Part shown: piece after piece, positions 9,298 to 31,903 of the stretch
Layout: each line of letters opens with the position of its first letter
How positions within the stretch are numbered: position 1 is the stretch's first letter
Assembly: GCA_003218375.1 (NCBI GenBank)
Contig: QHNH01000010.1
Span: 88,597-125,877, forward strand
Length of the DNA: 37,281 nt
Origin: Verrucomicrobiota bacterium
GTDB lineage: Bacteria; Verrucomicrobiota; Verrucomicrobiia; Chthoniobacterales; UBA10450
Direction of reading: 5' to 3'
Notes under the pieces: model-generated
What the model saw: the letters and a program-made list of their open reading frames with translations, nothing else
Database searches by the model: none
What the model was told of the DNA's origin: nothing
Translations under genes and position numbers: made by a program

Positions 9298-9301
9298 GCT
9301 C

Positions 9302-9383
9302 TTCTGTAGCCGCCGCTCTGTGAGCGGCGTGGAGGTGCAACATGGTCTTCTCTCGCGCGCCTCACAGAGGCGCGGCTACAGAA
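9302..9383. repeat. CTGTAG palindrome, copy 1
   Basis: Outer arms TTCTGTAGCCGC and GCGGCTACAGAA are perfect reverse complements. Inside each arm is a smaller hairpin, GCCGCTCTGTGAGCGGC on the left and GCGCCTCACAGAGGCGC on the right. The element fills the gap between convergent genes and its last bases supply the stop codon TAG (9376-9378, minus) of the pseudouridine synthase. Likely acts as a bidirectional transcription stop, by inference. Confidence 0.85.
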
Positions 9384-15185: not shown

Positions 15186-15259
15186 CGCACCCGTGAAGAT
15201 TCGAACTTCAAACCTTCTGATCCGTAGTCAGATGCTCTATCCAGTTGAGCTACGGGTGC
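15186..15259 (-). tRNA. tRNA-Arg (anticodon ACG)
   Basis: On the minus strand the acceptor arms GCACCCG and CGGGTGC pair perfectly. The D-arm is GCTC-AACTGGAT-AGAGC, the anticodon arm TCTGA-CTACGGA-TCAGA and the T-arm TGAAG-TTCGAAT-CTTCA. The seven-base loop puts ACG at positions 34-36. A34 is expected to be edited to inosine, reading CGU, CGC and CGA. The 3' CCA is not encoded; the discriminator base is G. Confidence 0.97.
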
Positions 15260-16930: not shown

Positions 16931-17049
16931 ACGGCCGCCGGACGATTCTGGCCTGGATTGTCGTGATCCTGACGGTCCTCGCCGTTTGGAAAGTTGCCGA
17001 TTGCCGGAACCAGCCGCCGGCGATCTCTTCTGTAGCCGCGCCTCTGTGA
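16927..17049 (+). CDS. Possible 40-residue membrane protein
   Basis: GTG 16927 overlaps the stop of the pterin dehydratase. The product has one hydrophobic segment (TILAWIVVILTVLAVWKV) after a basic start (NGRR), so it would be a single-pass inner-membrane peptide. Its last nine residues and the stop are supplied by the CTGTAG palindrome. The short length and lack of a recognised family keep this tentative. Confidence 0.4.
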   Translation: MNGRRTILAWIVVILTVLAVWKVADCRNQPPAISSVAAPL

Positions 17050-17110
17050 GGCGCGTGAGATAGACGTTCCATGCAATCCTCACGCTGCCCACAGGGCAGC
17101 GGCTACAGAA
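17028..17110. repeat. CTGTAG palindrome, copy 3
   Basis: Outer arms TTCTGTAGCCGC and GCGGCTACAGAA as in copy 1. Left inner hairpin GCGCCTCTGTGAGGCGC, right inner hairpin GCTGCCCACAGGGCAGC. It lies between convergent genes and supplies the TAG stop (17103-17105, minus) of the DUF5069 gene, exactly as copy 1 does for the pseudouridine synthase. Confidence 0.85.
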
Positions 17111-17537
17111 GAGGACTTAATTTCCTGCCTTCATCCGCGTCGATGAATTGAAACATCGTTTCGATCTCGGCCCGGTTCTCCATCCCGGCTTCGCGTTTGC
17201 GGCGGGCCAAAATCTCGGCGGCGTGATCGCGCCAGCCGAACTTGCGCATGAATTCGTTCCACATCGTAATCTCGTCGGCGCTCGGCCGCCGTCCCGCGGT
17301 GAAAGCCCACTCGAGCATCTCGGCGTCGGTCGCACCGTCGTTCACTCGCTTCGCCACCTCGGTGTAATCGAGGTGCAGAAACGCGCAACACTTCGCGTCG
17401 AATCCTTTGCCGAGATTCGGCTGATAATCCTCCGGCAGCTCGCCGCGAGCATGCAGGCGGATCTTGTCGAGCATCCGTCCGAAATGAACCACCCCGCCCA
17501 CTTTCTCCGCCGGACTGCGCACTGGGAATTCCTTCAT
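17103..17537 (-). CDS. DUF5069-family protein
   Basis: A 144-residue protein. RSPAEKVGGVVHFGRMLDKI and LPEDYQPNLGKGFDAKCC, followed by EITMWNEFMRKFGWRD, are the pattern of DUF5069, an uncharacterised family frequent in Verrucomicrobia and Planctomycetes. No signal peptide, so probably cytoplasmic. It diverges from the PafA-like gene with 57 bp between starts and ends in a CTGTAG palindrome. Function unknown. Confidence 0.8.
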   Translation of the reverse strand: MKEFPVRSPAEKVGGVVHFGRMLDKIRLHARGELPEDYQPNLGKGFDAKCCAFLHLDYTEVAKRVNDGATDAEMLEWAFTAGRRPSADEITMWNEFMRKFGWRDHAAEILARRKREAGMENRAEIETMFQFIDADEGRKLSPLL

Positions 17538-27975: not shown

Positions 27976-28098
27976 TTTTCTTGGCCTGAGTTTGTTGGCT
28001 TCGAGGGTGCGGTAGCAAGGCTTAACGGACGAAAACACGTCCGGCTATTTTCGAACGGTAAATTGAAGTTTTCGAGCCCGTTGCCGCTTGTCGTCGGG

Positions 28099-28434
28099 TC
28101 TTCCGGGCTCCCCAAAAACATGCCCGACGTTGTCGACGCTCTTTCCGGGCTCTCCGAAGAGGTGCCCGACAACGCCGGAGGGTCTTCACGGCTCCCCGGA
28201 AACATGCCCGGAGACGTCGGCCATCTTCCAGCGCTCCCCGAAAGCATGCCCGACAACGCCGGCCGTCTTTCCGGGCTCCCCGGAAACACGCCCGCGAACG
28301 TCGACACTCTTTTCGGGCTCCCGAGAAAGATGCCCGACGACGTCTACCGCTACGTCCGGCTCCAAGAAGACGTCCCCGACAAGCCCGGCGTTTTTTTCCC
28401 GCTCCCCGGAAAGACGCCCGACAACGTCAATTGC
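28099..28434. repeat. Tandem repeat, eight 42-bp units
   Basis: Eight consecutive units of exactly 42 bp start at 28099, 28141, 28183, 28225, 28267, 28309, 28351 and 28393. The consensus holds TTTCCGGGCTCCCCGGAAAC then ATGCCCGACAACGTCGAC. Only CTC and CCC triplets are invariant. Because 42 is divisible by three, three frames stay open, including one on plus (27841-28482) giving a 14-residue unit like LSGLPGNMPDNVD. Changes are not concentrated at third codon positions in that frame, so coding is doubtful. Flanks 27976-28098 and 28435-28544 hold no recognisable gene. Confidence 0.85.
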
Positions 28435-28544: not shown

Positions 28545-29315
28545 TCATAGATCGATATCATCCGCCTCTGGAGCATCAGGTAAACCCACAGCCATGCGAT
28601 TGATGACATCGATACAGATACCAATAAGATCCTGAGTTTCCGTCAGGGTGTATACGGACTCGGGATGCGAGGTCGGGTTGCGAAACGAATCTTTTACGTA
28701 TTTCAATCGTTCCAACAGCTTATCATCCGGCTTCCTTTTTTTCCGAAGAGCCTCGAGCATGTTGCCCCACATCGGCGTTTCAAGGCGGACACGTTTGACC
28801 GCCGTAAAGTAGTACGCTTTCAAGACCGCCTCGCAGGCTCTCAATATATGAAAAGCAGATGCAGTAGGCTGGTCGAATGCAAGACATTGAAATGCAGACG
28901 CGACATCTTGCTTGGCGATGTGCGGAAGGCGAGAGAACGTCCCGCTACTGAACATTATCGAAGGGTTACTCAACAGGCCCTCAAGGTTGAAACGACTTTG
29001 GTCAAGCAGGTAAAGACGCTTCGTACTTGCCTCTGCGACGACCATCAATTCCAAAACATTGATAATCTCGCTGAATTGGGCCTCTTCTGCTGCGGTAATC
29101 TTTCGCGACTTATCCTTTTCCTTACCAAGTTCCGTGCTGAGCTCCTGTAGTTTGTTTGTACCCGCCAAGCTCACGCTAAAGTCCGTTTTCTTGAGGCCGT
29201 CGACCAGTTTCTTCACTTCACCCATCACTTGGACAATGCTGTAGTGCTGGCATCTCCGCAGCAGACGGATAAGAAGCCCGATGTGGATGAATTGATACGG
29301 CCCAATCGTCTTCAT
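28545..29315 (-). CDS. HEPN-like hypothetical protein
   Basis: 256 residues from ATG 29315; the longer frame to 29414 runs out of frame through a glycosyltransferase gene remnant. Mostly helical. The C-terminal part contains FRNPTSHPE, which fits the R-x4-H motif of HEPN ribonucleases, preceded by long helices (AFHILRACEAVLKAYYF; LLERLKYVKDS). HEPN proteins act in toxin-antitoxin and phage-defence systems as RNA-cleaving subunits. No nucleotidyltransferase partner is adjacent. Function is inferred from one motif and fold impression only. Confidence 0.6.
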   Translation of the reverse strand: MKTIGPYQFIHIGLLIRLLRRCQHYSIVQVMGEVKKLVDGLKKTDFSVSLAGTNKLQELSTELGKEKDKSRKITAAEEAQFSEIINVLELMVVAEASTKRLYLLDQSRFNLEGLLSNPSIMFSSGTFSRLPHIAKQDVASAFQCLAFDQPTASAFHILRACEAVLKAYYFTAVKRVRLETPMWGNMLEALRKKRKPDDKLLERLKYVKDSFRNPTSHPESVYTLTETQDLIGICIDVINRMAVGLPDAPEADDIDL

Positions 29316-29334: not shown

Positions 29335-29409
29335 CTAAATTCCGGCACGCTCCAAAAGCGAGCGGAGAACTTCTTCGGCTTCGAAGAATTGGCGGGCGAT
29401 TTCGGGAGA
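29335..29409 (-). pseudogene. Detached 3' tail of a glycosyltransferase gene, copy 1
   Basis: On the minus strand this encodes SPEIARQFFEAEEVLRSLL then ERAGI and a TAG stop. It matches the end of the intact glycosyltransferase at 30728 (EIARNFFEAEKVLHSLLERA) with about three changes. No upstream part of the gene is present; an ACAGGATTTACAGG repeat begins about 12 bp away. Confidence 0.8.
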
Positions 29410-29417
29410 CACAAAGC

Positions 29418-29505
29418 AGGAGGACAGGATTTACAGGATTAACGGGATGGAAGAGTCCCGGATTCCGACCGAATCCTCCGAATCCTATTAATCCTGTCTA
29501 AGATT
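29418..29505. repeat. ACAGGATTTACAGGATTAAC inverted repeat, copy 1
   Basis: Left arm GGACAGGATTTACAGGATTA, right arm TCCTATTAATCCTGTC, centre about 40 nt with further AATCC words. It lies next to a glycosyltransferase tail. Such GGATTTACAGGATTAA elements recur twice more in this window. Confidence 0.75.
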
Positions 29506-29534
29506 CTGGTCACCCGGGCTGGTCGCGGTATTGT

Positions 29535-29948
29535 TCACTTTGTTTTCGAAAACGCGGCCATCAGCAAGATGGCGGACGCGACAACGACCAAAGCGGTTCC
29601 GAGCATGAAGAGCGGCGCGTCGTAGCGCACTCCCATAAGCGCAAGCAGCGTCACGGGTAGCGTCGCGACCGTGAGAGCAGTTGCCCGCACGATGACTTGC
29701 GCCCACGCGTGGCTCGCCGCCGCAGCAGGCGCCGCGTAAAACGTTAGGTAGCCAAGAGGAAACAGGAGCAGGCCAACCAGGATATGATTCAGGAGCATGG
29801 GTGGCACGAGTTCGTCGGCTGTCCCCGTTGAAGTCGAATGTCGGATGAGCGCGGCAATATGCGGCGTTGCTACCAGATGCACGATGCCGAGCAGAATAAG
29901 CAGGACTCCGCTGCCCCTGAGTAACCGAACGCGAGTGGATGCCGACAT
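29535..29948 (-). CDS. Small polytopic membrane protein
   Basis: A 137-residue protein with four hydrophobic helices (VLLILLGIVHLVATPHIAAL; LLNHILVGLLLFPLGYLTFY; ALTVATLPVTLLALMG; LFMLGTALVVVASAILLMAA). A His-containing first helix (GIVHL) and the overall size resemble small four-helix DoxX-like or DUF-type inner-membrane proteins, but no family is firmly recognised. Stands alone between two repeats. Confidence 0.65.
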   Translation of the reverse strand: MSASTRVRLLRGSGVLLILLGIVHLVATPHIAALIRHSTSTGTADELVPPMLLNHILVGLLLFPLGYLTFYAAPAAAASHAWAQVIVRATALTVATLPVTLLALMGVRYDAPLFMLGTALVVVASAILLMAAFSKTK

Positions 29949-29988
29949 GTTCAGACTTCGCAGCGTAACACATTACGCCGCAAGAATG

Positions 29989-30065
29989 AGAGACAGGATT
30001 TACAGGGTTAACTGGATGGAAAATTCTTGGTCCGCTCCGCGTGCATCGTAAGCGGCTTACGATGC
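29989..30065. repeat. ACAGGATTTACAGG half-element and adjacent perfect hairpin
   Basis: GACAGGATTTACAGGGTTAA (from about 29992) is a left arm without a right arm. It is followed at 30043-30065 by a perfect 10-bp stem, GCATCGTAAG-CGG-CTTACGATGC. Together they fill most of the spacer between the membrane protein and the HicB-like gene. Confidence 0.7.
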
Positions 30066-30116
30066 GGCTTATTGTGATCGCATGCTGTAGAGATGGGAGG
30101 TGATCACCGTTCCCGG

Positions 30117-30353
30117 CTACACGCCAGCCGGCTCGCGCATGGGACGCGTGGCGGGAGCAGGTAATTCGGCGCTGGTCGCAGCCAATTGCTCAATCTCTTC
30201 GCGCACCAGCTCGCGCAACCGCGCATAGGTTTCTTCTTCTCCCTGGCCTTCACATACACCACCCCAGGGAAAAAGATCGGGGCAATAACCGATGTAACGA
30301 GTGTCTTCCTCGCTCCAACGCACAAATTTCAAATATCGGTCTTCGGCTTTCAT
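30117..30353 (-). CDS. HicB-like antitoxin-type protein
   Basis: 78 residues from ATG 30353 (MKAEDRYLKFVRWSEEDTRY). The layout of strand, YIGYCPDLFPWGGVCEG, and helix EEETYARLRELVREEIEQL matches the partial RNase H fold of HicB. HicB proteins neutralise HicA toxins by binding them. No HicA (a roughly 60-residue dsRBD-like protein) is present on either side. The Pro-rich tail (PAPATRPMREPAGV) replaces the DNA-binding domain found in longer HicB proteins. May be a solitary antitoxin. Confidence 0.7.
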   Translation of the reverse strand: MKAEDRYLKFVRWSEEDTRYIGYCPDLFPWGGVCEGQGEEETYARLRELVREEIEQLAATSAELPAPATRPMREPAGV

Positions 30354-30429
30354 TGCGTCGCTTGGCGGATGGCGTTGCTGACTTGTTTCTCCTGGTAATG
30401 CTAAGCGTCTTCTCCATCCTGAGCCAGCC

Positions 30430-30530
30430 GGAACATAGGCTTTAGGCCTGTGTGCCAATGGACATTCTGTCGGTTGCGCTTTCAGCGGAGTTGAACTCCG
30501 CTGGGCGCACAGACTGAAAGTCTATGTTCC
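30430..30530. repeat. Inverted repeat with nested hairpin
   Basis: GGAACATAGGCTTTAGGCCT (30430-30449) then GTGTGCC mirrors GGGCGCACAGACTGAAAGTC (30503-30522) then TATGTTCC, with a few mismatches. The centre contains AGCGGAGTTGAACTCCGCT (30484-30502), a perfect stem. It lies upstream of the HicB-like gene, in a 374-bp stretch (30354-30727) with no intact gene. Confidence 0.75.
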
Positions 30531-30560
30531 TCTCCACGGACTCGGGCATGGCTAGATGCT

Positions 30561-30637
30561 TTAGATTCCGGCGCGCTCCAAAAGGGAGCGGAGGACTTTT
30601 TCGGCTTCGAAGAATTGGCGGGCGATTTCGGAAGAGA
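30561..30637 (-). pseudogene. Detached 3' tail of a glycosyltransferase gene, copy 2
   Basis: Minus strand: SSEIARQFFEAEKVLRSLL then ERAGI and a TAA stop, again matching the C-terminus of the 30728 gene. It is separated from that gene's own stop only by an ACAGGATTTACAGG inverted repeat. No other part of the gene remains. Confidence 0.8.
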
Positions 30638-30639
30638 AT

Positions 30640-30719
30640 TAGACAGGATTTACAGGATTAACTGGATGGAAGAATTCCTTGTCCCCACCAATCCCATAAA
30701 ATCCTGTTAATCCTGTCTT
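30640..30719. repeat. ACAGGATTTACAGGATTAAC inverted repeat, copy 2
   Basis: Left arm GACAGGATTTACAGGATTAA, right arm AATCCTGTTAATCCTGTC, with AATCCC words in the centre. It sits exactly between a detached glycosyltransferase tail and the stop codon of the intact glycosyltransferase. Confidence 0.8.
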
Positions 30720-30727
30720 GAACTTCT

Positions 30728-31903
30728 TCAAATCCCGGCGCGCTCCAGAAGAGAATGCAACACCTTTTCCGCTTCGAAGAAATTGCGCGCGATTTCCTGC
30801 GCCGCTAATGAGTGGCGGGTGTAGTCGGCGTTGATCTCTTTTACGGCGTCGGCGATTTCGCCTAACGAACGGAAGGCGATGAGGCCGTGACTATGGGCGC
30901 CAAAGATTTTGCTGAAGCCGGTTTCCTGGATGATGACGGGGCGGCCGGCGGCGAGGTAGCAGCCGCTGCGGTCGCTGAACCAGCCGGTGTTCAGCCTTAC
31001 GTACTGGTCCTTGGCAACGGTGAATTCGCCTTTCGAGCGGCGGATGTAATCGCGGTAGAGGCGATAGTCGGCGCTGAGATCGTGCGGGGCGCGGAAGCGC
31101 CAGCCGTTGCGGAGGAATCTCTCACGCGTCTTGTCGTCCTTGATGTCGGTGGCGAGCTCGAACATTTCGCCGGCGCGTTTGGGCGCGGCGATGAACCGGA
31201 GAAATTCGCGCGACTTGCTCCACAAATATTTTTGGCCGCGCCATTCGATGTCTTTCAAGCCACTCGTAGACCAGTTCGCGACGGAGGTGAACACGGCGGC
31301 GGGACTGGGCCGGCGCACGGTTTTCCAGAGATCGGTGACGATGGGCTGGCGGGTGGGAAGCCACTTCAACTTGTGGGTGGGGACGGGGAAGGCAGCGGTG
31401 CCGACGTTCTCGCCGAAGGTGAAGAGGGCGTGATGGCGTTTCAGATATTTGATCGTCGATTTGTTTTCCTGGTCGACTTTGATCTGTTCGACGCCGGGAT
31501 CGCTCTCGATGTAGAGGATACGGTCGCTGGCGAGCAGGTCCGGATTGAATTCCTGGGTGCCGCAGACGTTGAGGATGGCGTCGGCTTCGCGATAAAGCTG
31601 GCGGATGCGAGTGAGGGGAAGGCCGGCGGTGGGATTGCCTGGCAAGTAGCGGGCGCAAAAGCCCCAGCGGCGCGCGAAGCCGAACTCGGCGCCGAGATGG
31701 CCGAGGATGCGCGCGGCGTAATCGAACTCGTTGTTTACCTCGAAGGTGTCAGGGTTATAGGGAAGGCGGGCGGAGTCTTCGATGTAGAAGACGTCGTGCC
31801 CGAGGCGTTGCAGGCCGACAATGTAATGAAGGTGCTGCCAGATGACGCCGGCGATGGGACAGCCGCCCATGAAGCCCATGACGATTAAGCGCTTTCGTTT
31901 CAT
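30728..31903 (-). CDS. Glycosyltransferase, envelope-glycan cluster
   Basis: A 391-residue GT-B-like protein. N-terminus MKRKRLIVMGFMGGCPIAGV, then GLQRLGHDVFYIEDS; the C-terminal half has GEFTVAKDQYVRLNTGWFSD and GRPVIIQETGFSKIFG, typical of the donor-site end of such enzymes. A paralogue lies at 15428-16570. It is third in a minus-strand operon after an ABC exporter and a hexapeptide acyltransferase, which suggests building or decorating an exported glycan or glycolipid. Donor and acceptor unknown. Confidence 0.8.
   Translation of the reverse strand: MKRKRLIVMGFMGGCPIAGVIWQHLHYIVGLQRLGHDVFYIEDSARLPYNPDTFEVNNEFDYAARILGHLGAEFGFARRWGFCARYLPGNPTAGLPLTRIRQLYREADAILNVCGTQEFNPDLLASDRILYIESDPGVEQIKVDQENKSTIKYLKRHHALFTFGENVGTAAFPVPTHKLKWLPTRQPIVTDLWKTVRRPSPAAVFTSVANWSTSGLKDIEWRGQKYLWSKSREFLRFIAAPKRAGEMFELATDIKDDKTRERFLRNGWRFRAPHDLSADYRLYRDYIRRSKGEFTVAKDQYVRLNTGWFSDRSGCYLAAGRPVIIQETGFSKIFGAHSHGLIAFRSLGEIADAVKEINADYTRHSLAAQEIARNFFEAEKVLHSLLERAGI

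Follow-up and report, generated by a model that had tools for sequence, protein, structure and literature searches.

The window analysed here, the whole stretch of 37,281 nucleotides taken from a 3.96 Mb Verrucomicrobiota genome in 52 contigs (G000), carries on its minus strand an intact gene (31903-30728) for a 391-aa protein that we call GT. The "glycosyltransferase" label comes from the original prediction, an earlier reading of the gene's sequence, and has no Pfam support: the protein has no Pfam match and only a sub-threshold NCBIfam match to GWxTD. It belongs to an uncharacterised conserved family, with a relative present in 50 of the 58 genomes searched. Continuing along the minus strand, the gene is followed by a copy of an inverted repeat (copy A, 30641-30718), a detached GT 3′ end (tail 2, 30561-30637), a 77-aa ORF (30117-30350), a half copy of the repeat (29992-30026), a 137-aa ORF (29535-29948), a further repeat copy (copy B, 29423-29499), a second detached GT 3′ end (tail 1, 29335-29409) and, directly behind tail 1, a HEPN/DUF4145-domain gene (28545-29315). 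The half copy, just upstream of the 137-aa ORF, is an addition to the features described previously. Elsewhere in the window, a tRNA-Arg (acg) gene on the minus strand at 15186-15259 is 100% identical in the relatives G002 and G004.

Both detached ends are present as originally reported, in frame and terminated by a stop codon like the intact GT. Tail 1 translates to SPEIARQFFEAEEVLRSLLERAGI and tail 2 to SSEIARQFFEAEKVLRSLLERAGI (last 24 residues), each followed by the stop; they comprise the last 23-24 codons of the GT gene. Their similarity to GT is beyond random level, with scores of 37-39 compared with a best score of 16 in 200 shuffles of the 2.7-kb region. The earlier description of the tails as "nearly identical" to the intact gene is accurate for the protein (2-3 differences in 22 positions) but not for the DNA, which over the last 69 nt is 75% identical to the resident GT in tail 1 and 78% in tail 2, values that rule out a recent duplication of the resident gene. 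Over the same 69 nt, identity is 91% between the two tails, 93% between tail 2 and the GT end of the same-genus genome G006, and 83-84% between tail 1 and the GT ends of G005, G006 and G007. Tail 2 has 13 sites that favour the G006 orthologue and 3 that favour the resident GT (sign test p = 0.02); the same comparison gives no resolved preference for tail 1. The tails start at the same codon, TCTYCC precedes both, and their homology ends at the stop codon, with 5 of their 6 differences at third codon positions (p = 0.018). Given this third-position bias and the end of similarity at the stop codon, they resemble 3′ ends of GT alleles that accumulated their differences while the genes were working, rather than duplicated junk or copies derived from the resident; the tails themselves are probably without function. 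We also considered replacement of the resident gene's own tail, visible as a sharp drop in identity at its end, and rejected it, as identity to G005 is low in the last windows (78, 84 and 78%) but within noise.

When 83 genomes of the family were searched with tail 2, more than one match was obtained only in G000. In 119 loci totalling 1.22 Mb, mostly the surroundings of GT genes from the order, 117 tail matches were obtained: 115 end a full gene with a long frame, and the other two are the tails of the window. Full-length GT paralogues, which the original prediction proposed to look for in sister strains, are absent from the sister species: all seven same-genus genomes have a single GT orthologue without a detached tail and with different DNA behind it. 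The suggestion of a collapsed tandem array of paralogues survives in part, in that the third-position divergence points to full-length GT genes as the source of the tails, but these would be diverged orthologues rather than resident copies, and there is no array in the sister species.

Each tail, and the real gene end, adjoins an inverted repeat, as had been noted. Copy A, ACAGGATTTACAGGATT ... AATCCTGTTAATCCTGT, lies between the GT stop and tail 2 (DNA hairpin z = -5.7), and copy B lies between the 137-aa ORF and tail 1 (z = -3.5), which places a repeat 5′ of each tail. The repeat is an interspersed, hairpin-forming element of about 65-90 bp and is part of a genome-wide family, with 44 pattern matches to ACAGGATTNACAGGATT in G000 and none to the reversed control. 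Matches to the ACAGGATT inverted repeat number 44 in G000, 20 in G001, 5 each in G003 and G007, 1 in G005 and 0 in G002, G004 and G006, a patchy, lineage-specific expansion; a degenerate copy lies behind GT in G005. The alternative that the gene tail travels with the repeat as a composite unit is contradicted by the restriction of multiple tail copies to G000 among the 83 family genomes, by the 115 of 117 tail matches that end a full gene, by the other repeat copies read in G000, none of which has a GT tail or forms a tail-plus-repeat unit away from GT genes, and by the detached tails of other genes described below, which have no repeat at the tail. As these other repeat copies lack a GT tail and the tails of other genes do not need the repeat, the repeat may at most have favoured the breakpoint; it is not required for the tails and appears incidental.

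The stretch from GT to tail 2 holds the repeat only, and the ORFs lie between the two tails. The 77-aa ORF, HicB-like by eye only, has no Pfam or PADLOC match; 3 of 38 relatives have weak homologues of it, at other loci. The 137-aa ORF (length from the start used here) has homologues at other loci in G001, G002, G007, G018 and G023, and only its first codons survive behind GT in G005, a lone head which indicates that the region turns over and leaves debris. Distant homologues of the HEPN/DUF4145 gene occur at other loci in 4 of the 38 relatives. Among the relatives searched, no homologue of an inserted gene was found next to GT, nor was a donor genome with GT plus these accessory genes, and none of the ORFs analysed in the inserts of this or the other loci was recognisable as an integrase. 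At 28096-28431 is a tandem array of 42-bp units in about 6-8 copies with 61-76% identity.

Self-comparison of about 2.27 Mb (438 kb of G000, 0.9 Mb of five same-genus genomes and 0.9 Mb of other relatives, a non-random sample partly surrounding GT) identified further detached gene ends, each losing similarity at the stop codon or a few bases from it. In G000, a prolyl oligopeptidase end lies 1.2 kb behind its gene with a DUF2283 gene and two ribbon-helix-helix genes between, and a 129-aa ORF (P0002) has a second end 0.7 kb behind with an ORF6N gene between. In G016, from another genus, a P0002-type ORF is separated from a second copy of its 3′ end by HipA (PF07804) and an HTH gene (L253, 2241-3778), and in G002 a carboxylase has a 357-bp detached end with AtuA genes between (L295, 753-6346). 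G007 offers a weaker case, behind an ORF that looks by eye like a methyltransferase gene. With GT included, the detached tail lies downstream of the intact gene at 6/6 loci and upstream at none; two candidate head duplications (L133 and L170) both lie upstream of their genes. Tail lengths range from about 69 to 357 bp and copy identities from about 74 to 91%. Direct repeats, in the form of these gene ends, flank the inserted genes between GT tails 2 and 1 and at the prolyl oligopeptidase, P0002, G016 and G002 loci, and most junctions at the other genes are without long repeats. Differences at codon positions 1/2/3 number 23/13/93 (n = 129) over seven copy pairs, two of them from the GT locus and not fully independent; with 93 of 129 differences at third positions, the copies appear to have diverged as parts of working genes, and the duplicated gene ends would on these sequences be diverged alleles rather than fresh duplications. 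The distal P0002 copy is slightly closer to G005 (score 59 vs 53), and the prolyl oligopeptidase copies show no difference.

The G002 locus, the most informative of these examples, is an acyl-CoA degradation gene cluster containing the inserted AtuA genes. Here the detached carboxylase end forms a fusion with the first part of an enoyl-CoA hydratase gene, of which an intact copy lies further on, and ∼9 bp are shared at the joint. In the uninterrupted order of G000 and G005, the carboxylase is followed directly by HMG-CoA lyase and hydratase. The simplest history would be the import of a block of carboxylase, AtuA, AtuA2 and the start of the hydratase, homologous at the carboxylase and joined illegitimately inside the resident carboxylase end; no donor for the block was found.

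Taken with the other loci, we consider it probable that the GT tails are scars, behind a conserved gene, of additive DNA import from related species. The incoming DNA would bring a diverged copy of the gene, or of its 3′ end, plus neighbouring accessory genes. One side of it would recombine homologously with the resident gene, and a short illegitimate junction would close the other. The cell would end up with one complete gene followed by the newly gained accessory genes, and beyond these an extra 3′ end would remain. At least two such events would be needed at the GT locus to account for two tails, with the intergenic hairpin repeat lying at both junctions by happenstance. We infer both the one-sided homology and the assignment of resident and donated copies, and the tails are too short to tell a native copy from a donated one.

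The strongest competitor, which we regard as rather unlikely, is that a tandem GT array, some copies of which were acquired from relatives, decayed by deletion to 3′ ends, with the hairpin repeats favouring adjacent breakpoints. Such decay would agree with tails that diverged like pieces of working genes, with a hairpin repeat adjoining both of them and with other gene debris at the site, such as the lone ORF head in G005. However, no relative has an array, accessory genes lie between the tails, and decay would be expected to leave behind internal pieces, gene heads and fragments upstream as well, yet all six detached tail loci are downstream. Additive import fits better than paralogue decay because the other genes likewise show tails only, always downstream and with accessory genes between. 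The shared start codon and the TCTYCC beside the repeat also fit a single truncation that created a repeat-plus-tail unit, which was then duplicated within the GT locus. Although the alignment of the two units, each with its repeat copy, spans 164 bp, we judge this course of events improbable, as it sits poorly with tail homology that ends at the stop codon, with tail differences concentrated at third positions and with a G006 match that is better for tail 2 than for tail 1.

Elements that integrate into gene 3′ ends leave attL and attR copies that restore the gene end and flank the inserted DNA, much as the tail copies do here. That the tails are copies of an attachment site, left by an element which integrated site-specifically at the 3′ end of GT, is nevertheless very improbable in light of the lack of a recognised integrase among the ORFs analysed in the inserts, the several unrelated genes affected, the variable tail lengths and copies that are diverged rather than identical. 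An assembly artefact, a chimera of related strains, deserves mention in that the sister genomes and other relatives compared are metagenome assemblies, as G000 probably is too, and repeats lie at the GT junctions. We find it scarcely credible, since the same anatomy occurs at different genes in several genomes, the copies are clearly diverged and most junctions at the other genes have no long repeat.

Additive import of this kind would resemble two known processes. Insertion with long target duplication was described in Helicobacter pylori and is often tied to restriction-modification genes (Nobusato et al. 2000, cited in PMC1643837). In both cases long direct repeats, single in an uninterrupted relative, flank the accessory genes, and toxin-antitoxin-like genes are among the present inserts; here there is one GT end in each of seven sister species, and the carboxylase order of G002 is uninterrupted in G000 and G005. 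The differences are that restriction-modification genes were not seen here, that the duplicated stretch is a conserved gene edge, and that copies made by insertion would be near-identical when young, whereas those found here differ by about 9-26% with a third-position bias. Homology-facilitated illegitimate recombination, known from natural transformation in Acinetobacter, S. pneumoniae and P. stutzeri, likewise adds foreign DNA through one homologous side and a short microhomology on the other (PMC6382021). Its microhomologies of 3-10 bp compare with the joint of ∼9 bp in G002 and with an uncertain one of at most 3-4 bp (CGA) at GT; unlike the process as known, the present events are read from their scars alone.

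Should the pattern prove genome-wide, gene ends stranded in this way and diverged at third positions would provide a sequence-only marker of accessory-gene joins by interspecies recombination, usable for uncultured bacteria that offer no transposase or integrase as a lead. The pattern would also be relevant to the origin of "long target duplications", that is, whether the target was duplicated or a diverged second copy was imported. A more speculative extension, to which we give little credence, treats gene edges as portable homology arms. Small accessory modules, toxin-antitoxin-like genes among them, would have a copy of the neighbour's 3′ end at their flank and would pass among related soil Verrucomicrobiota by homologous recombination. 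No dedicated recombinase would be needed, and the neighbour gene would be made whole at every entry or exit.

The inverted repeat itself is REP-like. As in REPIN/REP-RAYT systems, short, hairpin-capable inverted repeats are scattered between genes of a genome that encodes Y1 transposases (PMC3116915), with 12 matches to Y1_Tnp (PF01797) in G000. REPIN/RAYT repeats flank, and are mobilised by, the RAYT (Y1) transposase; the repeat here appears incidental to the tails. A search of the repeats against RNA families gave one sub-threshold match only, to a microRNA model, which we take as chance, and a literature search for the exact repeat motifs found no paper. Two other palindromic repeats were observed in the window. 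A second interspersed palindrome, GGAACATAGGCTTTAGGCCTGTGTGCC / GGCGCACAGACTGAAAGTCTATGTTCC, lies at 30430-30530 and has a 103-bp relative on another G000 contig, and an 85-bp palindromic repeat occurs at 9299-9383 and 17028-17113, with 83% identity between the two copies in inverted and 73% in direct orientation.
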